Assembly: GCF_018069705.1 (NCBI RefSeq)
Contig: NZ_CP072943.1
Location: forward strand, 1,415,260-1,479,259
Direction of reading: 5' to 3'
DNA from: Aminithiophilus ramosus
Lineage (GTDB): Bacteria; Synergistota; Synergistia; Synergistales; Aminithiophilaceae
Length of the DNA: 64,000 nucleotides
Shown here: one piece after another, positions 1 through 15,301 of the stretch
Numbering within the stretch: position 1 is the stretch's first letter
Layout: each line of letters begins with the position of its first letter
Program-made: the position numbers and the translations under genes
The notes under the pieces: model-generated
What the model saw: only the letters and a program-made list of their open reading frames with translations
Database searches by the model: none
Told to the model about the DNA's origin: nothing

Positions 1-2011
1 TGGTGTCGTTGAGGACGCGGTTGGTGCGGGAAAAGGCCTGGATCAGACCGTGGTGTTTGAGGTTCTTGTCCACGTAGAGGGTGTTCAGAAACTTTGAGTC
101 GAAGCCGGTGAGCAGCATGTCCACCACGATGGCGATGTCGATCTTCTTGCTGTGCGGCAGATCGCTGTTCGGGTACTGCTGGTCTTTGATGCGCGTCTGC
201 ACGTCCTGATAGTAGAGGTCGAACTCGCCCACTCCGTGATTCGTGCCGTACCGCGCGTTGTAGTCGGCGATGATGCTCTTGAGGGCCTCTTTCTTCTTTT
301 CCGGCTCCTGCTCGTTGTCGGCCCTTTCCTGGGGCAGGTCTTCCTGTATCTGCTGCACGTCCCTGTTGCCCTCGGCGGGCGGCGAGAAAACGCAGGCGAC
401 GTTCAGCGGCCGGAAGTTCTCGTCCTCCGCCGCTCTTTCGGCCTGTACCGTCTTGAAGAGTTCGTGATACTCGATGGCGTCGTTGATCGACGAGGTGGCC
501 AGAAGGGCGTTGAACTTGCGCCCGTTGGTGGCGGCGTCGTGCTTGGAGAGAATCGATTCGACGATGGCTTTCTTGGCGAGGGGTTCATCGGTCTTCGCCG
601 GAATCTTTCCTTCCGGTTTGAAGTAATCCACATGGAAGCGCAGGACATTCCGGTCTTCGATGGCGTGCGTGATCGTGTAGGCGTGCAGTTGCTGCTGGAA
701 GAGGTCCGCCGTGGTCCGGTAGCTGGCCTGCCGCCCCTCGATCTGCTGATGGGAGGCGTTCTCCTCGAAGATGGGCGTGCCGGTGAATCCGAACAACTGG
801 GCGTCGGGAAAGAATTCCCTGATGGCCCTGTGGTTCTCGCCGAACTGCGACCGGTGGCACTCGTCGAAGATGAAGACGATGCGCTGATTCCGCAGGGGCT
901 CCAGCCGCTCGGCGTAGTTGCGCCTGCTGTTGTTGCCGTCGAGCGCGAGGCCGAGCTTCTGGATGGTGGTGACGATGACTTTGTCGGCATAGTCCTCGGA
1001 GAGGAGGCGCCGCACCAGGGTTTCCGTGTTGGTGTTCTCTTCGACGCACCCTTCCTGAAACTTGTTGAACTCCTCCCGGGTCTGCCTGTCGAGGTCTTTG
1101 CGGTCGACGACGAAGAGGCATTTGTCGATGTCGGGATTGTCCTTGAGGAGGGTCGACGCTTTGAAGGATGTGAGCGTCTTCCCGCTGCCTGTCGTGTGCC
1201 AGATGTAGCCGTTGCCGCAGCGCCGGTGGATGGACTCCACGATGGCCTTGACGGCGTAGATCTGGTAGGGGCGCATCATCAGGAGCTTCTGTTCGCAGGC
1301 CACGAGCACCATGTAGCGGCTGATCGTCTCGCCCAGGGTGCACTTGGCCAGAAAGGCGTCGGCGAAGCTGTCCAGGTGGGTGATCTTCCTGTTGCTTGGG
1401 TCCGCGTACTGGTAGAGCGGCAGAAAGCGCTCGTCGGCGTCGAAGCGGAAGTGACGATTGTTGTTGTTGGCGAAGTACCATGTCTCGCTGCGGTTGCTGA
1501 CGATGAAGAGCTGCATGAAACAGAGCAGCGTTTTTCCGTAGCCGTTGCCGGGGTCGTTCTTGTAATCGACGATCTGCTGCATCGCCCGGCGCGGGCTGAT
1601 CGCCAGCGTCTTCAGTTCGATCTGCACGACGGGGACGCCGTTGATCAGCAGGATCACGTCGTAGCGGTGATGGCTGTAGTCGGTGCTGATGCGCAGCTGG
1701 TTGACGACCTCGAAGGTGTTCTTGCACCAGTCCTTGATGTTGACCAGCGTGTAATGGAGCGCCGTACCGTCATCGCGCTCGAAGGTGCTGCGCTCGCGAA
1801 GACGGCGGGCGGCGGCGAAGACGTCGGGGGTGACGATGTCCCCCAGCAGCCGGCCGAATTCGCCGTCGGTGAGGTTCACGCGGTTCAGTTCCTGAAAGTG
1901 CCGGCGGAAGTTCCGTTCCAGCGCCGCCCGGTCGCCTATGTCCTGGCGGTAGGCGTATTTGAGGTCGATCAGTTTTTCGATCAGAAGTTGTTCGATCTGC
2001 TGCTCGGTCAT
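1..2011 (-). CDS. hsdR: Type I restriction endonuclease subunit HsdR, C-terminal end off the window
   Basis: This is the motor and nuclease subunit of a type I restriction-modification complex, which translocates DNA with ATP and cleaves it. The frame is open from an ATG at 2011 to the window edge, about 670 codons of a family usually near 1,000. The N-terminal PD-(D/E)xK nuclease signature (YDVILLING then VQIELKT) lies near residues 117-133. The Walker A motif TTGSGKT is near 270, the DExH-type box DECHRS near 381 and FTGTP near 408. Helicase motifs V and VI (LLTGFDSK, AFSRTNR) lie near the left edge. An RBS (GGAGGG) sits 5 nt before the ATG and overlaps the end of a small upstream ORF, which suggests translational coupling. 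No hsdM or hsdS is visible; they would have to lie outside the window. Family assignment is firm; activity cannot be judged. Confidence 0.93.
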   Translation of the reverse strand, partial: MTEQQIEQLLIEKLIDLKYAYRQDIGDRAALERNFRRHFQELNRVNLTDGEFGRLLGDIVTPDVFAAARRLRERSTFERDDGTALHYTLVNIKDWCKNTFEVVNQLRISTDYSHHRYDVILLINGVPVVQIELKTLAISPRRAMQQIVDYKNDPGNGYGKTLLCFMQLFIVSNRSETWYFANNNNRHFRFDADERFLPLYQYADPSNRKITHLDSFADAFLAKCTLGETISRYMVLVACEQKLLMMRPYQIYAVKAIVESIHRRCGNGYIWHTTGSGKTLTSFKASTLLKDNPDIDKCLFVVDRKDLDRQTREEFNKFQEGCVEENTNTETLVRRLLSEDYADKVIVTTIQKLGLALDGNNSRRNYAERLEPLRNQRIVFIFDECHRSQFGENHRAIREFFPDAQLFGFTGTPIFEENASHQQIEGRQASYRTTADLFQQQLHAYTITHAIEDRNVLRFHVDYFKPEGKIPAKTDEPLAKKAIVESILSKHDAATNGRKFNALLATSSINDAIEYHELFKTVQAERAAEDENFRPLNVACVFSPPAEGNRDVQQIQEDLPQERADNEQEPEKKKEALKSIIADYNARYGTNHGVGEFDLYYQDVQTRIKDQQYPNSDLPHSKKIDIAIVVDMLLTGFDSKFLNTLYVDKNLKHHGLIQAFSRTNRVLNDT

Positions 2012-2013
2012 CT

Positions 2014-2163
2014 TCAACCCTCCGGAAGTTCCTCGCCAGAGCTTTGCCGGAACGATCGCCTCTCCGGGGTCCCTCCCCTGAAGAGGCGATCGAGGCGCCT
2101 GCTCGCAGAAGGCCGCCGATCATCGTCCGGCCCCTCATCCAGCGACACGAAAACAGCCTCCAT
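2014..2163 (-). CDS. Small conserved ORF (about 49 aa) upstream of hsdR
   Basis: This short reading frame starts at ATG 2163 (or GTG 2166) and stops 2 nt before the hsdR ATG. It is rich in Arg and Asp. I do not recognise a family. A diverged copy of the same frame lies at about 13,662-13,783. Between the two copies the peptide keeps a DRRP motif, RR, DRLFR and TPERRSFR, with Asp/Glu and Leu/Phe exchanges and several synonymous Arg codon changes (for example AGG against CGC). That substitution pattern argues for selection on a protein rather than a chance open frame. The ORF lies directly behind its own promoter (2221-2249). It could be a leader peptide coupled to hsdR or an independent small protein. 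Its function is unknown. Confidence 0.5.
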   Translation of the reverse strand: MEAVFVSLDEGPDDDRRPSASRRLDRLFRGGTPERRSFRQSSGEELPEG

Positions 2164-2264
2164 CACGACAGAGGCCGCAGCAGAAACACCGATCGAAAAG
2201 GCCTTTTTAAATCTTCTTATAACATAAGAGCCGGTCGGCTGCTTGTCAACAGTTTCACCCGCTT
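2049..2264 (-). repeat. Promoter plus small-ORF module, copy 1
   Basis: About 215 bp here is similar to 13,662-13,875 (I estimate 70-75% identity by eye, with a few gaps). The conserved part starts with GCGAAGCGGGTGAAAC upstream of a TTGACA -35 box, runs through the -10 box, an AT-rich leader and the small ORF, and ends at TPERRSFR. Both copies contain a small hairpin with arms AGGCG and CGCCT. Copy 1 is joined upstream to a truncated IS element and downstream to hsdR. Confidence 0.65.
2221..2249 (-). promoter_or_regulatory. Sigma-70-type promoter for the small ORF and hsdR
   Basis: Read on the minus strand, a perfect TTGACA (2249-2244) is followed by a 17-bp spacer and TATGTT (2226-2221). 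The same arrangement is conserved in the second module copy. Transcription would enter the small ORF and hsdR. Confidence 0.65.
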
Positions 2265-2533
2265 CGCCGGGGGACCAAGACTGAGGGCGACGGCCGTTGC
2301 CGGGGACGGGCGAACCCGTCTCGATACGAGCCTGCTTCCTCCACTGCCTGAGCGTTTCGAAGCTGATTCCCGTCTCACGCGCCAGAGACGAGAGGGAGGC
2401 GTTCTCGGGGGGCATCATTCGTTTGACAAGCTGTTCTTTCACGTCGGGACTGTAGGGGTTCATGAGGCGAACCTCCTCTGGAGTTCAATCATAACCTACT
2501 CAGGAGAGGCGACAACTATTGTGGCACAGGGGG
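2265..2533 (-). mobile_element. Truncated IS3-family element, orfA end only (remnant 1)
   Basis: This is the first 269 bp of the same 1,720-bp IS3-family element found complete at 4690-6409 and 10627-12346. It has the terminal repeat ending in five G at 2533, the orfA start (ATG at 2463) and the HTH region (ETGISFETLRQW). It breaks at about 2265, where the small-ORF module begins. The hybrid frame across the junction (2014-2463) is a by-product of the fusion and not a real gene. Confidence 0.85.
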
Positions 2534-3327: not shown

Positions 3328-4689
3328 CTATCCACCATCGTTTTCACCTTCGCCTACCTGCTCTTCAATCCATTCTGCCGGGATCAGTGCGGCTCCTCTC
3401 CTCCACCGCTCAACAACGGCGGCCTGGTACCAGTCTTCCGTCACATCGGCGTGCTCTGTGATGATGACCTGTAGTCCAGGACTCAGCTCAGCAACGACGT
3501 CTCGGATCAGCTCGAAGATGCGGATGACCGCAGTTCGATCCTCGTCGTCGAGGACAGCCATGGAACCACCGATGTCTTGCTCAGCAGGAAAGTAGACCTG
3601 TGATGGCTGATCCAAAAAGAGGAAACGAGGAACTGGGCGGCTATTGCGCACGAACCAGATGTGGAGCGCCAGGTGCGCAATAATGTGACAGCAGAGCGCG
3701 TTCGCACCGCTTCCCATTCTATCCATGGGTATCGGTCCCACTTCAGTCTCTGCGTCCGCCACAAGTTGAAGGCGACGCGGATCTAGTCGAAATGGGTTTC
3801 CGCTGTGCTCGTGTTCGAGCCGCTCAGCCCAGCTCGTCAGTTTCTTACTGATGACCGAGAGGATAGAGTCCAACCGCTCCTGCATTTTCTCATCGCTCAG
3901 TTCAGCCTTGATCCCTTCGATCTCGATCTGCAGCTGTTCAATCTCGCGACGGAGCTTAGAAGAGTCTGCGATCTGCGGCAGAGTCTCAAGGAACAAGCTA
4001 ATTCGCCCGAGGACGAGAGCTCGACGCAACGCTGCATCGCGAAGCGCTGTGAGCCGATCATCAGACCGACGGATCGCCTCCAGCGCGCCCCGATTCTCCT
4101 TAAGCAAGCGACGCGTCTCGGCCAGCTTTGTTTCTTGCTCGATGATGAGAGACTCGAGCCCAGGCGTATGTTTCGAGACACTACTGAGCTGGTTGGAGGC
4201 GCGGTCAAGCTCGGACTGGAGCTGCGACACTGTTGGCACGCGGTCAGATGTTGGCTGTTCGCAAAGCGGGCAGCACCCAGAACTAGCCGCTGCGAAGATT
4301 CCCAGGCTTGAAAGCCGCGACACCTGCTCCCCTGTCTCCTGTGAGTATCCCCCTTCGTCGTCGAGCAGTGACTGCATCGCATCGAGCTCATTCTGCTGCC
4401 GGCGCAGCTGCTCCCGGAGCCGCACGTGCTCGCCGTTCAATCGACCTAGCTCTGCCTGATCGACGCTTTCCTCGTACCTGGTGAGCTGCTCCTCCGGCGA
4501 TACACTCATAGCGGATCGTAACTCAGCGACAGCATCTTCCCACGTGGCTGGTGCGGCGTCCGCTGGCAGAAGGCCCACAGCCCTGGCCTCGGCCACAAAT
4601 GGGGCCGCACCACCTAGTCCATCTAGTCCATCTAGTCCATCGCCTGCAATGGCCTCCAGGCGAGCGAGTGAGCGCTCTCGATCTCGGAG
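3328..4689 (-). pseudogene. ABC-3C system ATPase (DUF3732), C-terminal part
   Basis: This is the last 454 codons, including the stop, of a Rad50-like ABC ATPase whose 5' parts lie at 6410-6741, 8261-8509 and 9779-9856. It contains long coiled-coil stretches flanking a zinc-hook-like CPLC motif (in SSGCCPLCEQP). Near the C-terminus is a signature-like region (RMGSGANALCCHI), then the Walker B region FLFLDQPSQVYFP typical of DUF3732 proteins, then IITEHAD. The stop is the triplet at 3328-3330. Joining it to the upstream pieces after removing the IS at 4690-6409 restores the frame (RRQL then RDRERSL). No internal stop or frameshift was seen, so the break looks recent. Assignment to the DUF3732 ATPase of an ABC-three-component system is confident; the system's target is unknown. 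Confidence 0.85.
4614..4640. repeat. Three tandem copies of a 9-bp repeat
   Basis: CTAGTCCAT is repeated three times without interruption. It lies in frame in the ABC-3C ATPase and codes for a repeated Gly-Leu-Asp tract on the minus strand. It is a likely site of length variation between strains. Confidence 0.9.
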
Positions 4690-4774
4690 CGGTGTTTGTC
4701 AATATAGTTGTCGCCCAAGAGTCATGCATGCATCAGGTTGACATTTCCTCTTCCGGCATCTCCTTCGCGATCGT

Positions 4775-5868
4775 TCAGCCGGGGTCCTTCTCCGCTTTTT
4801 CCTCCTTACCCGATCTGTCGGGGTTGAGGAAGACGGGACCGATGGATTCCCATCGGCGGGTTTTGCCTCTCCACCGTTCGGGGTGGGCCGATCGGGCCTT
4901 TTCGTAGCGAAGCTTTCTTTTCTTCAGGATCTCGACGTCGTCGCCTCTGTGGCGGGCGTCGGGGGTGACGAAGCCGATGGCGCTGTGGCGATGCTTTTCG
5001 TTGTACCAGCGGACGAAGGCGGCCGTCCATTTCCGGGCCTCTTCGAGGCCGGCGAATCCCTGCGACGGGAAGGCGGGGCGGTATTTGTAGGTCCGAAAGA
5101 GCGATTCCGAGTAGGCGTTGTCGTTGCTCACTCTCGGGCGGCTTCTGCTGGAGAGGATTCCCAGGGCCGCAAGGCGGGCCGGGAAGGTCGAGCCCTTCAT
5201 GGGGCTGCCGTTGTCGGAGTGGAGGACCAGCGGTTTCGTGAAGGTCTTTTCCGAAACGACTGCGCGGGTGACGAGTTCGGAGGCGTGGTCTTCCGATTCC
5301 CTCTCCCAGATCTCCCAGCCGACGATCTTGCGGCTGTAGATATCCAGGATGAGGTAGAGGTAGTAGTGGAGCCCGACGATGGGGCCCGGCAGCCAGGAGA
5401 TGTCCCAGGACCAGACTTCGTTGGGCCCTTTGGCTTCGTGTGTCGTCGGTACCTTGGGCGAGCCGGTTCGGGACCGGCCGCGACGGTTCTGTCGATTCGT
5501 GGACCGGAGGATGCGGTAGAAGGTCGATTCCGAGGCGAGGTAGATGTCCCGATCGGCGAGGATAGGGACGATCTGACTCGGGGGCAGGTCGGCGAACTCT
5601 TCGCTGTCGACGACGGAGCGGATCGTTTCGATTTCCTCTTCCGTGAGGCTCCAGCGGGGCTTGGGGCGATTCGCCTTCCTGCGGCCGTCTTCGGCGACCT
5701 GTCCCTCCCTGGTCCAGCGCTGGAAGGTGCGGAGAGTGAGGCCCAGCTCGGCGCAGGCCTTTTCCCTGCGGGCTCCCTGGCGGCAGGCTTCTCGGACGAG
5801 GTCGCAGGCCGCCTGGCGATCGGGGAGGCTCAGATACCGTCCTCGTCGTCCCCCCAGATCGCCTGGGC
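4775..5868 (-). CDS. IS3-family transposase OrfB (DDE integrase domain), copy 1
   Basis: This is the catalytic part of the transposase. It has no obvious start of its own and is read in the -1 frame relative to orfA. The T7 run at 5869-5875 (A7 on the coding strand, after CG) is a typical slippery site that would give an OrfAB fusion. A helix-turn-helix-like segment (LGLTLRTFQRW) comes first. The rve/DDE domain follows: WSWDIS supplies the first Asp, HSDNG the second, and the catalytic Glu is in the ND-NAYSES region. The C-terminus is basic and runs to the stop at 4775. It matches copy 2 almost residue for residue. Confidence 0.88.
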
Positions 5869-6339
5869 TTTTTTTCGCAGCGTGAGCAGGGCCGCCGTTT
5901 CAGCCAGGGCCTTTTCCTTTCTCCGAAGTTCCCGCTCCAGCTCCTTCAGGCGTCCCCTGTGCGACGTGAGTTCCTCGCGCAGCTCCCTGACGTTGTCTCT
6001 GTCCCGGCCGGCGGCGAGGCCGTCGAGGCAAGCCTCGCGCCAGCTACGGATCTCCTCGACGTAAAGACCCTTCGATCGACAGTATTCGGCCTGTTCCGTC
6101 TCGTTCATCCCCGCCGTGGCCAGGACGGCGAGAAGCTTGTCGCCGGGGGACCAGGACTGAGGGCGACGGCCATTGCCGGGGACGGGCGAACCTGTCTCGA
6201 TACGGGCCTTCTTCCTCCACTGCCTGAGCGTTTCGAAGCTGATTCCCGTCTCACGCGCCAGAGTCGAGAGGGAGGCGTTCTCAGGGGGCATCATTCGTTT
6301 GACAAGCTGCTCTTTCACGTCGGGACTGTAGTGGTTCAT
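5830..6339 (-). CDS. IS3-family transposase OrfA (HTH), copy 1
   Basis: This 169-aa protein starts at an ATG preceded by AGAGGAGG. The N-terminus carries a helix-turn-helix (SLSTLARETGISFETLRQW). The C-terminal third is a charged leucine-zipper-like coiled coil (RGRLKELERELRRKEKAL) expected for OrfA multimerisation. It overlaps orfB at the A7 slippery run. Alone it would bind the ends and regulate; fused to OrfB it makes the active transposase. Roles follow from the family. Confidence 0.88.
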   Translation of the reverse strand: MNHYSPDVKEQLVKRMMPPENASLSTLARETGISFETLRQWRKKARIETGSPVPGNGRRPQSWSPGDKLLAVLATAGMNETEQAEYCRSKGLYVEEIRSWREACLDGLAAGRDRDNVRELREELTSHRGRLKELERELRRKEKALAETAALLTLRKKAQAIWGDDEDGI

Positions 6340-6409
6340 GGGGCGCACCTCCTCTGGAGTTCAATCATAACCTACTCAGGAGAGGCGACAACTATTGTGG
6401 CATAGGGGG

Positions 6410-6741
6410 GAGCTGTCTGCGCAATTCTCTGAGCTTCGCCTTCTTCGCGACGAAATCGTCGTCGACGGCACCTAAGAAGTATGGGAGCGTGTCCTTGATG
6501 GTCTGGGCAACCCAATTGTCACTCTGTTCGTGGAAGAGAAACTTGGGGTGAGAGACTTCTTCCTGCTTCTGAAAGACAAAAGCAAGGGCGTGCCGCAACT
6601 TCGCAGATACGGGCCTCCGAGTCTGGCCTTCCGGTGGTTCATGAAGGTTCAGTCCAATTCCCACTACGGCGGTGAGACGTTCCACAACGCTGTCAATGTT
6701 CGTGGTTGCAGAAATCTCGGGAGCCTCGGGCAACGTCAGCG
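6410..6741 (-). pseudogene. ABC-3C ATPase (DUF3732), middle part
   Basis: This segment of the ATPase gene lies between two insertions. Its first 17 bases read on the minus strand (6741-6725) duplicate 8277-8261, the target duplication of the ISNCY-type element; the remaining 105 codons run APEISATTN to LRRQL with no stop. It covers the end of the N-terminal ATPase half and the start of the coiled coil (AFVFQKQEEVSHPKFLF, then KKAKLRELRRQL). A start codon apparent inside the flanking IS is an artefact of the junction. Confidence 0.83.
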
Positions 6742-8260
6742 TGTCAAGGGACACTAAAAATGTCATCTAAAAAGAGGGTCTGAGGGACAATGAAAGTGTC
6801 GCTTTCGAGGGGCTGAAATCGCCCCCGTCAACAGCCCGCCTTGGCTTTCCTCCGCGGCGGAGGTCCTTCTAGGGAGGGGAACCCGTCCCTTGCTCGGAGC
6901 CGACCGCCGCGGCAGGAGGAGCGGGATTCTGTCGCCAGGGATGGTCTGCCGCCGGCTTCCTCTGCTTCTTCGTTTTGCATGGAGTGCCTGTCTTCGTCTC
7001 GATGACAGGCGGGGGAGTCGCAGGGGGCTCTTTGTCGACGGCTGCGAGATCGTAGAGCCCGTCATGGACAAGAGCCAGGAGTTTCCCGTCGAGCTTCTCG
7101 ATGACCTTGACCGCCTGTCCCCTGGCAAGAAGCAGGGGGCGTCTGCGGGGGCCTATCAGGGCGTACTGTTTTCCGTCGAGGGAAATCGTCGAGTCTCCCG
7201 AGGCCTTCCGGTCGGTCTGGCGAGTCAGGAGGAGATCGAGAGCGGGTCCGTCCGGCGGAGGGAGAAAGGCAGATGCCCCCTCTGCGGGAGGACGAGCGAA
7301 CCTCGGGTTATGGACCTCTCCCGGGTAGGCGGCGAGCAGGACGTTGGCCTCTTCGATCGTTTTCACTCCGGCCCGTCGGAAGGCGACGACGAGACGATCC
7401 TGAAGAGTTCCCCAGAGCCTTTCGATCCGCCCCTTCGCCTGGGGAGACCCTGCAGGGACATAGCGAGTTCCGAGAGCCTCCAGAGCGCGGCCGAACTGGG
7501 TTACAGGCGCCGAGTCCTCCAGCTCCTCCTTGATCGTCAGTTTTTCCGACTTGGGAGAAAGGAAGATGGTGTGGCGGTCGGCGTAAAGCTCGCGAGGCAC
7601 GCCGTGGCGATCAAGCATCTGACGGAGCACGCGGAAGTAGCCGAAGAGGCACTCATTCCTGGCCATCCACAGACCGAGGACCTCTCCTGTGGCATCGTCA
7701 ATCACGCCGTGGAGAGTGCAACGCTCACCGATCTCGAACCAATCGAAAGGAGAGGCGTCCATCTGGACCAGATCGCCTCGTCGGGACCGTCGGACCCTGC
7801 GGGAACGCCGCTTCGGGGCCCGGTGGCGATGAACGAGGGACAGGTTCTCCGCGCGAAGGAAACGGGCGATGCTCTTGGCGCTCAGCACGAGATCATGCTC
7901 TTCGGCAAGGAGTTCGGCCATGTGCTGACAGCTCGTATCCCTGTAAAGACCCTTGGCCAGACTGACGACGAAATCCCGTGTCTCCTGAGAGATTCTGCGC
8001 CGGGACGGTTTGCCTCGTCCCTTGTGCAGGAGCCCCTGCGCTCCTTCTTCCCGGTAGCGTCGTTTGAGCCGAAAGACCTGACGGCGGCTCAGACCGAGCC
8101 GATCGGCCACCTCCTGAACCGTCAGGTTGCCCGCGACAGCCTCTTCCACCAACCCCAAGCGCCTTGCTTCTTTTGTCTTCATGAGTAGGTCTCTCCTGGT
8201 CGTCATAAGTGACATTTTCCCTGTCCTCTTCACGAGTGACAATACCATTGTCCGGCGACA
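6742..8260 (-). mobile_element. Complete ISNCY/IS1202-like element (1,519 bp), copy 1
   Basis: The ends read inward as TGTCGCCGGACAATG and TGTCAAGGGACACT, with further TGTCA repeats just inside. It carries one transposase gene. It is flanked by a perfect 17-bp direct repeat, CTCGGGCAACGTCAGCG, at 6725-6741 and 8261-8277. Removing the element and one repeat restores the ABC-3C ATPase frame. Long target duplications are a known trait of IS1202-type elements. A near-identical inverted copy lies at 15415-16933. Confidence 0.9.
6869..8182 (-). CDS. ISNCY/IS1202-family transposase, copy 1
   Basis: This 437-aa DDE transposase starts at the ATG at 8182, preceded by GGAGAG; the frame is open further upstream to the IS end, but those codons overlap the terminal repeats. 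Two N-terminal HTH segments (VQEVADRLGLSRRQVFRLKR, then SAKSIARFLRAENLS) precede the integrase core. Catalytic residues are Asp in LVQMDAS, Asp in YADRHTIF and Glu in GRIERLWG. The TQFGRALEALG and SPQAKGRIERL motifs are typical of ISNCY transposases. The C-terminal tail is basic and Pro-rich. It sits inside the ABC-3C ATPase gene in the same orientation. Confidence 0.9.
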   Translation of the reverse strand: MKTKEARRLGLVEEAVAGNLTVQEVADRLGLSRRQVFRLKRRYREEGAQGLLHKGRGKPSRRRISQETRDFVVSLAKGLYRDTSCQHMAELLAEEHDLVLSAKSIARFLRAENLSLVHRHRAPKRRSRRVRRSRRGDLVQMDASPFDWFEIGERCTLHGVIDDATGEVLGLWMARNECLFGYFRVLRQMLDRHGVPRELYADRHTIFLSPKSEKLTIKEELEDSAPVTQFGRALEALGTRYVPAGSPQAKGRIERLWGTLQDRLVVAFRRAGVKTIEEANVLLAAYPGEVHNPRFARPPAEGASAFLPPPDGPALDLLLTRQTDRKASGDSTISLDGKQYALIGPRRRPLLLARGQAVKVIEKLDGKLLALVHDGLYDLAAVDKEPPATPPPVIETKTGTPCKTKKQRKPAADHPWRQNPAPPAAAVGSEQGTGSPP

Positions 8261-8509
8261 CTCGGGCAACGTCAGCGTTGACCCTACTGCGTAATAAGCG
8301 TCCGAAGTGGTGGTTCTCCCCGGGTCGGGAGAACGACGAGCGACGAAGTGTTCGGATGAGCCATCCGTGAGGTGAATACCGTACCAAGAAACGTTATTAC
8401 GTATGATGCCTTCGGGGACTTCACATGACGAGCTGCCAAGGCAGTAGTCCACTATGTCAATGAGCGCGGACTTCCCCGTCTTCGCGTCGCCGGTGATGAT
8501 GTTCAGCTC
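8261..8509 (-). pseudogene. ABC-3C ATPase (DUF3732), Walker A part
   Basis: This segment encodes ELNIITGDAKTGKSALIDIV, the nucleotide-binding loop characteristic of DUF3732 ATPases, followed by DYCLG and the family's EVPEGIIR segment, and ends at TLTLPE. It is cut upstream by the IS at 8510-9778 (target repeat CTC, read GAG on the coding strand) and downstream by the ISNCY-type element. Both joins restore the frame when the elements are removed. Confidence 0.87.
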
Positions 8510-8596
8510 TATAGTGGACCCCGAAAACTGGACCACGAGCTAAGTTGCAGTTGAAGTCGGGCTGTATCATAGGGTCCCAGAAAGAGAGGGGACATC

Positions 8597-10353: not shown

Positions 10354-10626
10354 AACTCCTCCCGGGTTTCGAGGAGGTGCTTGAGTCGACGCATGAACTC
10401 GGGATGCCAGCCAACCCTGAGGGTATCGGCGAGAATGTGAAACGAGCCCCGCGTCATGCTGGGATGCAACACCCGCGGCCGAATAGGGTAACAGCTGTCC
10501 TCAACCCATGCATAGACCTTCTGGGCGGCTGACCGCATGGTGTCCTCCGCAGCCGCGTCGCCAATCTCATCAACGAGCCGGTTGAACTGAATCTCCCACT
10601 CCTCGCGCAACAGCCGCTCGTAGCTC
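10350..10626 (-). pseudogene. ABC-3C effector, C-terminal part
   Basis: This is the last stretch of the effector, split from 12347-13279 by IS copy 2. From 10622 it reads YERLLREEWEIQF and continues to MTRGSFHILADTLRVGWHPE and the stop TGA at 10352-10350. The RGS-HxLAD-xxVGWHP segment is characteristic of the C-terminal domain that tethers these effectors to the ABC-3C complex. The apparent ATG at 10610 (MREEW) is not the real start. Confidence 0.8.
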
Positions 10627-10696
10627 CCCCCTATGCCACAATAGTTGTCGCCTCTCCTGAGTAGGTTATGATTGAACTCCAGAGGAGGTGCGCCCC

Positions 10697-11206
10697 ATGA
10701 ACCACTACAGTCCCGACGTGAAAGAGCAGCTTGTCAAACGAATGATGCCCCCTGAGAACGCCTCCCTCTCGACTCTGGCGCGTGAGACGGGAATCAGCTT
10801 CGAAACGCTCAGGCAGTGGAGGAAGAAGGCCCGTATCGAGACAGGTTCGCCCGTCCCCGGCAACGGCCGTCGCCCTCAGTCCTGGTCCCCCGGCGACAAG
10901 CTTCTCGCCGTCCTGGCCACGGCGGGGATGAACGAGACGGAACAGGCCGAATACTGTCGATCGAAGGGTCTTTACGTCGAGGAGATCCGTAGCTGGCGCG
11001 AGGCTTGCCTCGACGGCCTCGCCGCCGGCCGGGACAGAGACAACGTCAGGGAGCTGCGCGAGGAACTCACGTCGCACAGGGGACGCCTGAAGGAGCTGGA
11101 GCGGGAACTTCGGAGAAAGGAAAAGGCCCTGGCTGAAACGGCGGCCCTGCTCACGCTGCGAAAAAAAGCCCAGGCGATCTGGGGGGACGACGAGGACGGT
11201 ATCTGA
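10697..11206 (+). CDS. IS3-family transposase OrfA (HTH), copy 2
   Basis: 169 aa, identical to the copy-1 protein as far as I can compare. The ATG at 10697 follows AGAGGAGG at an 8-nt spacing. N-terminal HTH and C-terminal coiled coil as in copy 1. The A7 run at 11161-11167, following CG, lies 40 nt before the stop and is the likely -1 frameshift site into orfB. Confidence 0.88.
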   Translation: MNHYSPDVKEQLVKRMMPPENASLSTLARETGISFETLRQWRKKARIETGSPVPGNGRRPQSWSPGDKLLAVLATAGMNETEQAEYCRSKGLYVEEIRSWREACLDGLAAGRDRDNVRELREELTSHRGRLKELERELRRKEKALAETAALLTLRKKAQAIWGDDEDGI

Positions 11207-12261
11207 GCCTCCCCGATCGCCAGGCGGCCTGCGACCTCGTCCGAGAAGCCTGCCGCCAGGGAGCCCGCAGGGAAAAGGCCTGCGCCGAGCTGGGCCTCAC
11301 TCTCCGCACCTTCCAGCGCTGGACCAGGGAGGGACAGGTCGCCGAAGACGGCCGCAGGAAGGCGAATCGCCCCAAGCCCCGCTGGAGCCTCACGGAAGAG
11401 GAAATCGAAACGATCCGCTCCGTCGTCGACAGCGAAGAGTTCGCCGACCTGCCCCCGAGTCAGATCGTCCCTATCCTCGCCGATCGGGACATCTACCTCG
11501 CCTCGGAATCGACCTTCTACCGCATCCTCCGGTCCACGAATCGACAGAACCGTCGCGGCCGGTCCCGAACCGGCTCGCCCAAGGTACCGACGACACACGA
11601 AGCCAAAGGGCCCAACGAAGTCTGGTCCTGGGACATCTCCTGGCTGCCGGGCCCCATCGTCGGGCTCCACTACTACCTCTACCTCATCCTGGATATCTAC
11701 AGCCGCAAGATCGTCGGCTGGGAGATCTGGGAGAGGGAATCGGAAGACCACGCCTCCGAACTCGTCACCCGCGCAGTCGTTTCGGAAAAGACCTTCACGA
11801 AACCGCTGGTCCTCCACTCCGACAACGGCAGCCCCATGAAGGGCTCGACCTTCCAGGCCCGCCTTGCGGCCCTGGGAATCCTCTCCAGCAGAAGCCGCCC
11901 GAGAGTGAGCAACGACAACGCCTACTCGGAATCGCTCTTTCGGACCTACAAATACCGCCCCGCCTTCCCGTCGCAGGGATTCGCCGGCCTCGAAGAGGCC
12001 CGGAAATGGACGGCCGCCTTCGTCCGCTGGTACAACGAAAAGCATCGCCACAGCGCCATCGGCTTCGTCACCCCCGACGCCCGCCACAGAGGCGACGACG
12101 TCGAGATCCTGAAGAAAAGAAAGCTTCGCTACGAAAAGGCCCGATCGGCCCACCCCGAACGGTGGAGAGGCAAAACCCGCCGATGGGAATCCATCGGTCC
12201 CGTCTTCCTCAACCCCGACAGATCGGGTAAGGAGGAAAAAGCGGAGAAGGACCCCGGCTGA
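11168..12261 (+). CDS. IS3-family transposase OrfB (DDE integrase domain), copy 2
   Basis: Read in the -1 frame from the A7 run, with no stop until 12261. The order is a linker, an HTH-like segment (LGLTLRTFQRWTREG), a second DNA-binding helix region, then the integrase core with WSWDIS, LDIYSRKIVGWE, LHSDNGSPMKG and RPRVSNDNAYSES. It needs fusion to OrfA for a start codon and RBS. Intact, so the element is probably active. Confidence 0.88.
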
Positions 12262-12346
12262 ACGATCGCGAAGGAGATGCCGGAAGAGGAAATGTCAACC
12301 TGATGCATGCATGACTCTTGGGCGACAACTATATTGACAAACACCG

Positions 12347-13279
12347 GCTCTCCAGCTCGCCAACGAGGAGCAACTCTTCGCGTATCCAACGGGACCGCTG
12401 GGCAAAGGCCCTGTAGTAATCGCGGATAGCCGCCAGGATTCGCCCTGTACCTACTCCAGCGAGCCGAACCTGGTGGACAAACACCGCATTGTCGTAGGCG
12501 TTCGCTTCAGTCTCTTTCTCAAGGATATCGCGGTCCACGGGCAATGCGTCGCGGTTGAACTGCTCCCGGAGATCATGCCACTCGCCTTCAAGTTCCGAAC
12601 TGAAGATGGGCGGCGAGGTTCCGTCCACGAGTTGGCGAAGGGCGCGCCCGAACCACCACCCTTCGAGCCGCTCGACAAATCCGTCGAGGTGTTCACGACG
12701 CACGACCAACCGCGCCTCCGCACGAATGGCATCCCCCACGTCGGTAATATTTGGCGCCTTTGGAGCGATTATGACTGTGCTTAGAAGTTCCTGCTTCTCC
12801 GAGGCGGAAAGAGCCCTGAAGAGAGTGTACGCCGTTTGGTTGGTGTCGCTCGTCGAGGTCGCCGCGGTTTGTTCCAACAGCCTCGACGCCTCGGGTACAT
12901 CGCGTTCGCAAGCCAGTAACCGGCTGGCAGCAGCCCCAGCACCAACGTCGCTGGTTGTGATGAGAAACAGACGAGCATCGGCAGGGATGGCACCATTGGA
13001 CCGCCCCTCCATCCAAACGCGAAGCGATTTCCACAAATCAGGGCTGGCGTCGGTCAGATTAGCGGCTCGATCGGAGTGGTGTTTCAGCTGCAGCAACTCG
13101 ATGGCTGAACCTGTTGTCTCGAATACAACATCATCTAGGGTCTCCAAATACAACGCAAAGGAGGCAGCCTGTGCGAAACGCTGTAAAGAGAGACACAGAG
13201 CCAGTCGCACTTGGTACAGGTATCCTAGCGCTGAATTGGCCGCTGAGAAATCCGTCGGCTTGCCAAAACTTGACGCCAT
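12347..13279 (-). pseudogene. ABC-3C effector, nuclease-like N-terminal part
   Basis: This is the first gene of the ABC-3C operon, 311 codons before the interruption, starting at an ATG preceded by AAGGAG. The N-terminus (SAANSALGYLYQVRLAL) followed by LDDVVFE and ELLQLKHH resembles the restriction-endonuclease fold of DUF4297-type effectors, where Asp and a Q-x-K motif sit in the active site. The C-terminal portion (VRLAGVGTGRILAAIRDYY, then RWIREELLLVGELES) starts the ABC-3C attachment domain completed at 10622-10350. Total length would be 401 aa. Nuclease activity is inferred from the motif; DNA cleavage gated by the ATPase is the usual model for such systems. The last few codons visible before the IS stop (12329-12346) belong to the element. 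Confidence 0.8.
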
Positions 13280-13390
13280 CAGTCAATCTCCTTCGACGAC
13301 TTCTTAAAAATTCGACCTCAATTATTGCCTGTCGCAAAACACTGGAGCTTCCTGTCCGACGTGACACCGTGCGAACGCCGCAAACTTAAG

Positions 13391-13618
13391 CGGTGTTTGT
13401 CAAGAAATTTGTCGCTCAAGTCTCTTGCATGCATCAGGCTGACTTTCTCTCCTCCGCCGTCTCCCTCGCGTCGGTTCCGTCCGGTTCCTTTTCCTCCCCA
13501 CCCGATCCGCCGGGGTTGAGGCAGACGGGGCCAACAGGCTCCCGTCGGGGAGGTTTGCCTTTCCACCATGCGGGGTGGGCCGATCGGGCCTGTTCGTGGC
13601 GAAGCTTCCTTTTCTTCC
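13391..13618 (-). mobile_element. Diverged right-end remnant of the IS3-family element
   Basis: About 228 bp matches the right end of the 1,720-bp element (terminal CGGTGTTTGTCAA, a TTGTCGC box, and the last part of orfB around HPERW/GK) at roughly 75-80% identity by eye. It is older than the other copies. It stops near GAAGCTTCCTTTTCTTC, shortly before the second promoter/small-ORF module begins. Confidence 0.7.
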
Positions 13619-13661
13619 GTTATCGGAGCCAACGACGATGCGGACTGTCTGGGGTTCACCC

Positions 13662-13875
13662 TTTCGGAAAGACCGGCGCTCCGGGGTCCAGTCCCTGAAG
13701 AGGCGATCGAAGCGCCTGTTCCTGAAAGGCCGTCGATCCTCTTCTTGCCCTTCCTCCAGCCACGCACAAACGACCTCCGCCACGGAGGCAACACCGATCA
13801 AAATCTTTTCCCTAAATTTTCTTCTAATATAAAAACAAGTCAGCTGATTGTCAACAGTTTCACCCGCTTCGCGCG
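13662..13875 (-). repeat. Promoter plus small-ORF module, copy 2
   Basis: Diverged copy of 2049-2264. It keeps the upstream GCGAAGCGGGTGAAAC, the promoter, an AT-rich leader and the small reading frame (from GTG 13783 or TTG about 13803) with WLEEGQEEDRRP, then DRLFR and TPERRSFR. Beyond the conserved part the frame stays open into the IS remnant until 13400, which is probably meaningless. Unlike copy 1 there is no recognisable gene downstream. Confidence 0.6.
13826..13854 (-). promoter_or_regulatory. Sigma-70-type promoter of module copy 2
   Basis: TTGACA (13854-13849), a 17-bp spacer and TATATT (13831-13826) read on the minus strand. It is a better match than the copy-1 promoter and is flanked by AT-rich sequence in an otherwise GC-rich region. 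Confidence 0.65.
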
Positions 13876-14243: not shown

Positions 14244-14762
14244 TCATCGGGTTTGCAGGATCAGGTCGCGAACCTCCTCGGCGGTTTCTGTCGGCGTCCG
14301 GCCCGTCGTGTCGACGAGCTCCGTCCCCAGATGCGCATACAGCGGCAGCCGGGCGAGGCTGCGCCTCATGTCCTCTTCGCTTCGATGGTCGGACTTCATC
14401 CGCCGGAGAAGTTCCTCCTCGGAGCAGATCAGGCTGAAGCGACGGGTCTCCCGATCACAGGGGATCAGCCCGGCCTCGACTTCGTCGATGATCGCCCTTT
14501 CGTGGAGGACCCAGTCGAAAAACACGATTTCGAATTCGTCGTTGCGGAGGAAGTTGTTCAGCAGAAAGACGATGTTCTCCATGACCATCTGCCGGTTCCT
14601 CCCCGAGAAAGACCAGGGGTGCATGGTCCAGCACCAGTCGCCGTCGAGCCAAAGGGATCGGTCGAACATCCGGTACAGCTCCCGGCAGGTCGTCGTTTTT
14701 CCGACTCCCATGGTGCCGCCGATCAGGATCAGCGTCTTCGGGGCCATCAGGTCAGGTCGCAT
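14244..14762 (-). CDS. P-loop kinase-like ATPase (AAA_33 type)
   Basis: A small nucleotide-binding protein of about 172 aa from the ATG at 14762; a second ATG at 14747 is equally likely. The Walker A motif GGTMGVGKTT is near the N-terminus, followed by a WLDGDWCW segment and a hydrophobic strand ending in FFDWVLHERA, as in small-molecule and nucleotide kinases of the zeta-toxin/chloramphenicol-phosphotransferase-like group. The C-terminus has LVDTTGRTPTETAEEV. No clear RBS was seen and no neighbour suggests a substrate. It is monocistronic between the island and the tRNAs. It could be a resistance kinase or a metabolite kinase; I cannot tell which. Confidence 0.7.
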   Translation of the reverse strand: MRPDLMAPKTLILIGGTMGVGKTTTCRELYRMFDRSLWLDGDWCWTMHPWSFSGRNRQMVMENIVFLLNNFLRNDEFEIVFFDWVLHERAIIDEVEAGLIPCDRETRRFSLICSEEELLRRMKSDHRSEEDMRRSLARLPLYAHLGTELVDTTGRTPTETAEEVRDLILQTR

Positions 14763-14828
14763 GACGGATTCGGGCTGCGTCGACACATCACCGGGCAGAT
14801 TTCCCCCTTGCCCTCCCCGCTTTTTCAC

Positions 14829-15111: not shown

Positions 15112-15187
15112 TGGCTCCTCGGGCAGGACTCGAACCTGCAACCTAGTGGTTAACAGCCACCCGCTCTGCCTATTGAGCTACCGAGGA
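15112..15187 (-). tRNA. tRNA-Asn (GTT)
   Basis: Cloverleaf with a 7-bp acceptor stem TCCTCGG/CCGAGGA, anticodon loop CTGTTAA and T-loop GGTTCGAGTCC. CCA is encoded. It is the second gene after tRNA-Cys on the minus strand. Confidence 0.95.
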
Positions 15188-15227: not shown

Positions 15228-15301
15228 TGGAGGCGGCACCCGGATTCGAACCGGGGATGAAGGATTTGCAGTCCTCTGCCTTACCACTTGGCTATGCCGC
15301 C
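15228..15301 (-). tRNA. tRNA-Cys (GCA)
   Basis: Acceptor stem GGCGGCA/TGCCGCC, anticodon loop CTGCAAA, T-loop GGTTCGAATCC, encoded CCA. It is the first gene of the minus-strand Cys-Asn pair. Confidence 0.95.

Follow-up and report, generated by a model that had tools for sequence, protein, structure and literature searches.

A shared promoter core and leader as a candidate front end for defence operons in one genus of Synergistota

Introduction

Host control of horizontally acquired defence operons is poorly known. Among the systems described so far, RptR represses a type I RM island via sites that overlap the -10 element, with the motif TAGCTA, TAGATA, TATCTA or TATATA (PMC12255303). The WYL regulators BrxR and CapW form modules, each a regulatory gene with its operator, that stand ahead of diverse phage-defence operons (PMC9122589, PMC9122588, PMC9122601). 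In the CapK/CapS system, one regulatory front end is found upstream of diverse immune operons (PMC13373217).

Here, we describe a repeated promoter in Aminithiophilus ramosus, within a stretch of 64,000 nucleotides (the window; NZ_CP072943.1, positions 1,415,260 to 1,479,259). With a probability of about 0.6, we consider each repeat to be a promoter with a 5' leader, used in this genus of Synergistota as an interchangeable front end for operons of anti-phage defence. The best reading is a genus-specific defence-operon promoter/operator, which would work like the promoters controlled by RptR or BrxR.

Two copies of a promoter and leader

The first-pass annotation proposed a duplicated promoter followed by a selected small protein; the promoter, which is the important part, has stood, and the protein has not. 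The two diverged direct copies, both on the minus strand, are recovered by repeat finding in the window and by whole-genome blastn (74% identity, E 3.6e-35), and align over about 215 bp at 74% identity with a 12-bp gap. They are termed copy 1 (c1) and copy 2 (c2), and the orthologue of c2 in strain L-13 is termed c3.

2048-2267, minus strand: c1, promoter and leader of about 200 nt before the hsdR-hsdS-rhuM-hsdM operon; 74% identical to c2
1-2011, minus strand: hsdR, running beyond the window; the operon hsdR-hsdS-rhuM-hsdM is called by PADLOC as REase_I, Specificity_I, PDC-S05 and MTase_I
2264-2533, minus strand: truncated left end and orfA of an IS3-family element abutting c1; 96% identical to 6140-6409; HTH_Tnp_1
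13660-13875, minus strand: c2, the same promoter and leader at the edge of the defence island, pointing inward; 95% identical to its orthologue c3
13389-13617, minus strand: IS3-type orfB/right-end relic between c2 and lmuA; 78-84% identical to the intact IS at 4690-6414
12329-13279, minus strand: lmuA-like gene (Lamassu) downstream of c2; PADLOC LmuA E 6.7e-47, Pfam CTD7 and weak Cap4_nuclease

The 5' end of c1 lies against the truncated IS3 orfA and its 3' end at the hsdR RBS. The second copy had been described as having no gene behind it; lmuA in fact begins about 380 bp downstream, across the IS relic. A whole-genome search found no third copy in the 3.1 Mb, single-contig genome, and strain L-13 of the same species (CP074691.1) has one copy, c3. 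The 215-bp DNA returned nothing beyond chance fragments from 188 Synergistota genomes, GTDB, IMG/VR, plasmids and phages.

Both copies contain the proposed TTGACA-17-TATRTT promoter, and the shared upstream box, CGAAGCGGGTGAAACTG before TTGACA, is identical in c1 and c2. The hexamers match the consensus at 10 of 12 (c1) and 11 of 12 (c2) positions, against 0.1 expected in shuffles, and each forms the strongest promoter match in its surroundings.

2244-2249, minus strand: c1 -35 element, TTGACA, invariant in all six family members
2221-2226, minus strand: c1 -10 element, TATGTT, after a 17-nt spacer
2207-2220 (c1), minus strand: conserved element directly after the -10, ATAAGAAGATTTAA in c1 and AGAAGAAAATTTAG in c2, kept across c1-c6
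13849-13854, minus strand: c2 -35 element, TTGACA
13826-13831, minus strand: c2 -10 element, TATATT

The element after the -10 may be an operator or the initial transcribed region.

The c1 leader contains a strong hairpin of its own.

2053-2092, minus strand: very stable hairpin in the hsdR leader, in copy 1 only and not conserved in c2 and c3 (z -3.4 in c1, +0.3 in c2, -0.5 in c3)

The leader RNA showed no compensatory pairs and no covariation, and two tRNAs were the sole matches in an Rfam search.

The small open reading frame

2014-2166, minus strand: proposed small ORF, GTG/ATG to TGA, judged not to be a conserved gene; start and stop not conserved

Several features had suggested a selected peptide here, ending in DRLFR-xx-TPERRSFR. 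The frame is open in both copies, several differences between them are synonymous, and dN/dS in the shared frame is 0.44 for c1-c2. As the first-pass annotation stated, the copy 1 frame stops (TGA 2016-2014) two bases ahead of the hsdR ATG (2011-2009). In c2 and L-13 the frame passes beyond TPERRSFR into IS DNA, so that the copies have no common stop. The c1 frame is also open upstream, continuous with the truncated IS3-type orfA (ORF 2463-2014); in DNA this rich in GC, an open frame is therefore of little weight.

The substitution pattern gives little indication of selection on a peptide. The c1-c2 value has P about 0.10 against random placement of substitutions, the c1-c3 and c2-c3 values are 0.76 and 0.63, and an antisense frame across this DNA scores 0.47, equally well. 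Residues change at 17 of 42 codons between c1 and c2, against 19.7 when the same substitutions are placed at random (P 0.15). The L-13 leader carries an inserted T upstream that causes a +1 frameshift; no SD-led start was found, and SD and start positions differ between copies. The three codon positions differ far less in GC content (0.69/0.55/0.74) than those of hsdR do (0.58/0.34/0.88).

The annotation had named three findings that would count against a peptide: a dN/dS near 1, no further copies elsewhere and no homologous frame in other genomes. The last two largely apply: further copies of the repeat were not found, and no homologous frame occurs in 188 Synergistota genomes, 84,980 GTDB species or IMG/VR. 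The only other protein match to the peptide, in G115, is antisense to secD and was rejected. The frame is probably fortuitous and a selected peptide unlikely, given the weak dN/dS, the L-13 insertion, the frames continuous with IS DNA and the flat GC by codon position.

A promoter core at six sites

Profile scans across four genomes of the genus indicate that the recurring part is a promoter core of about 45 bp. Its parts are TTGACA, A(T/G)CnG opening the spacer, the -10 element and a conserved AGA..A...TTTA element beyond it. Outside the hexamers, every site has an A after the -35 and, within the spacer, a C at position 3 and a G at position 5. Counting from the end of the -10, each site also has A at positions 1, 3 and 6, followed by TTT at positions 10-12. 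TTGACA and a TATAAT-like hexamer, 17 nt apart, exceed chance in c1 and c2, and the hexamers are present at all six sites.

c1, A. ramosus: before the type I RM gene hsdR
c2, A. ramosus: before the Lamassu gene lmuA, IS DNA now between
c3, L-13: before a DrmD-like/type III system, IS DNA now between
c4, L-13: before an HTH_17-helicase-type III operon
c5, G002: before an HTH_17-type I RM operon
c6, G002: before the same helicase operon as c4

A fourth site, TTGACAAGCAG-N12-TATATTAGAAGAACATTTAG, was read by eye at the opposite edge of the L-13 island, also facing inward. A model built from c1-c3 alone scores it at 19.8 bits (E 1.1e-4), the sole extra match in 158 kb. Scanning 188 genomes with a c1-c4 model added c5 and c6, two weak matches in G002, a genome of this genus (E 0.004 and 0.1); individually they are at or near chance in this phylum-wide scan and were accepted on context. 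Across the four genus genomes, the strong matches to the six-site model are these six and no others (E at most 2.1e-10; next best 0.09), with no strong match in G003 of the same genus; these E-values are rough. Because c4 was found by eye and c1-c4 come from one species, the sites are not independent draws. All six sites stand before defence operons or at the edge of a defence island facing inward, and among the genomes searched they are confined to this genus. The exact promoter pattern has eight matches in IMG/VR, all with unrelated flanks.

The defence island and its insertion sequences

The locus is a hotspot for defence islands, bordered on one side by a kinase gene, close to which lie two tRNA genes, and on the other by a permease gene beyond the window.

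14244-14828: kinase gene at the island border
15115-15187 and 15231-15301: two tRNA genes beside the island edge and the kinase gene, a possible integration hotspot

On one side, homology between the A. ramosus genome and L-13 breaks off precisely where the repeat ends 3' (13660); on the other, it ends near genome position 1410124. Between these borders A. ramosus carries lmuA/lmuB (Lamassu, IS-broken) and hsdR-hsdS-rhuM-hsdM; L-13 carries a DrmD-like/type III system, an AAA ATPase (PDC-S06) and an HTH_17-helicase-DinD-type III operon. PADLOC calls the operons type I RM, Lamassu, DrmD-like/type III, and HKD+Snf2 with type III. Both c2 and c3 point into the island.

The lmuB-like (DUF3732) gene appears split, with a C-terminal part at 3328-4596, an N-terminal-looking piece (6869-8536) fused to a transposase frame starting at 8536, and IS copies between the pieces. 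Two copies of an IS3-type element of about 1725 bp (4690-6414 and 10622-12346), inverted and 100% complementary, bracket part of the island, and L-13 has the same element at 99.9-100%. A 119-bp remnant between IS fragments (2531-2649) is 94% identical to a DUF1016/YhcG-like region of L-13 (L103:6804-6922), which suggests that this island once carried the L-13-type gene set. RhuM-like genes lie within both the type I RM operon of A. ramosus (L080:14043-15062; PADLOC PDC-S05) and the L-13 type III operon (L102:7407-8480; judged by eye).

Shuffling of front ends and operons

The same front end can precede different operons, and the same operon can follow different front ends. The c4 and c5 sites have promoter, leader and a first gene encoding HTH_17 (PF12728, an excisionase/AlpA-like small protein) in common, and the operons behind them differ; at c5, the HTH_17 gene matches the query consensus with 92% identity and precedes a type I RM operon. 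The helicase operon behind c6 is 96.4% identical to that behind c4 over 1823 bp, starting just before the start codon; upstream, the two are unrelated except for the promoter core, and the c6 leader holds an apparent remnant of an HTH_17 gene. The hsdR genes of G020, G022 and G037, 88-93% identical, are preceded, upstream of the RBS, by sequence that has nothing in common with c1. With a helicase operon behind different leaders, a front end before different operons, and an RM operon with and without the front end, these comparisons indicate that front ends and operons have recombined while the core was kept.

Interpretation

The simplest account of these sites is a promoter and operator devoted to the defence operons of this genus. 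We infer an active promoter of the sigma-70 type in the core, and we regard the conserved positions outside the -35 and -10 hexamers as a putative operator for a shared regulator. The core of about 45 bp would be the functional part, because it alone persists across sites whose leaders, first genes and operons are different. The predicted transcription start lies about 7 nt beyond the -10, near 2214 in c1 and 13819 in c2. The c1 transcript would run through the leader of about 200 nt into hsdR-hsdS-rhuM-hsdM, and the c2 transcript into the defence island (lmuA), where the IS relic now intervenes. For the regulator, the obvious though unproven candidate is the HTH_17 protein, whose gene heads two of the six operons.

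The front-end reading has to accommodate c2 and c3, which are now cut off from their defence gene by IS DNA; c1-c3 could also be explained by duplication and slow decay of a strong promoter, without a dedicated operator. A broader proposal, which we hold only tentatively, is a genus defence regulon, in which a single regulator acting in trans would recognise the extended core (A(T/G)CnG after the -35, AGA..A...TTTA after the -10) and co-control unrelated systems, newly acquired operons being selected for joining the promoter. Against HTH_17 as a common regulator, its gene is not detected in the A. ramosus genome at E 1e-10, only a remnant stands before c6, the G020 homologue (80% identical) has a different promoter, and homologues in other genera lack the extended core.

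It is doubtful that the repeat is a passive relic, a segment duplicated at the hotspot boundary and rearranged by insertion sequences, with no present function. The exact end of A. ramosus/L-13 homology at the repeat, on the island edge, would fit such a relic, as would the IS fragments that abut both copies and the IS relic that separates c2 from lmuA; however, c4, c5 and c6 carry the core ahead of other defence operons, in flanking DNA that is not homologous, and c1 has a near-consensus promoter directly before the hsdR RBS. We give little credence to a selected product of the small ORF, be it a regulatory protein or a leader peptide, that in copy 1 would be coupled to the translation of hsdR; the reasons are set out with the small ORF. 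The small mobile unit that the first-pass annotation had also entertained found no support, and a non-autonomous mobile element of 215 bp is highly improbable: its copies are scattered and adjoin insertion sequences, but there are at most two per genome (two in A. ramosus, one in L-13, none elsewhere), no terminal inverted repeats appear among inverted repeats of at least 20 nt, and operon junctions explain the differing flanks.

The front-end reading matters in that one promoter core is found ahead of several unrelated defence systems, with matched cases (same operon behind different front ends, same front end before different operons) that show recombination with the core kept. It offers a concrete candidate for how a defence island might come under common control, in a phylum that has been little studied.

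Comparison with known systems

The locus resembles the RptR system in having a promoter before type I RM operons with a conserved sequence overlapping the -10, in standing before other defence modules as well, and in that the first gene may encode a small DNA-binding protein (PMC12255303). It differs in that its core is unrelated and restricted to one genus. Direct reading of the six cores found none of the RptR sites (TAGCTA and variants). RptR does not appear to be the first ORF; c4 and c5 have HTH_17 there, and c1-c3 have no first-ORF regulator. With BrxR/CapW and CapK/CapS the locus has in common that a candidate regulatory front end is joined to diverse defence operons. Unlike BrxR/CapW, the front ends considered here contain no gene for a WYL protein, and the c1/c2 frames and HTH_17 proteins gave no match to the WYL domain. 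Unlike CapK/CapS, the front ends hold no kinase/STAS pair, and the promoter core alone is common to all six. HTH_17 heads the c4 and c5 operons but is absent from c1-c3 and reduced to a remnant before c6. Since the cores lack the RptR site and c1-c3 have no gene for such a regulator beside them, we do not count the front end among the RptR, BrxR/CapW or CapK/CapS families, though it may work like them.
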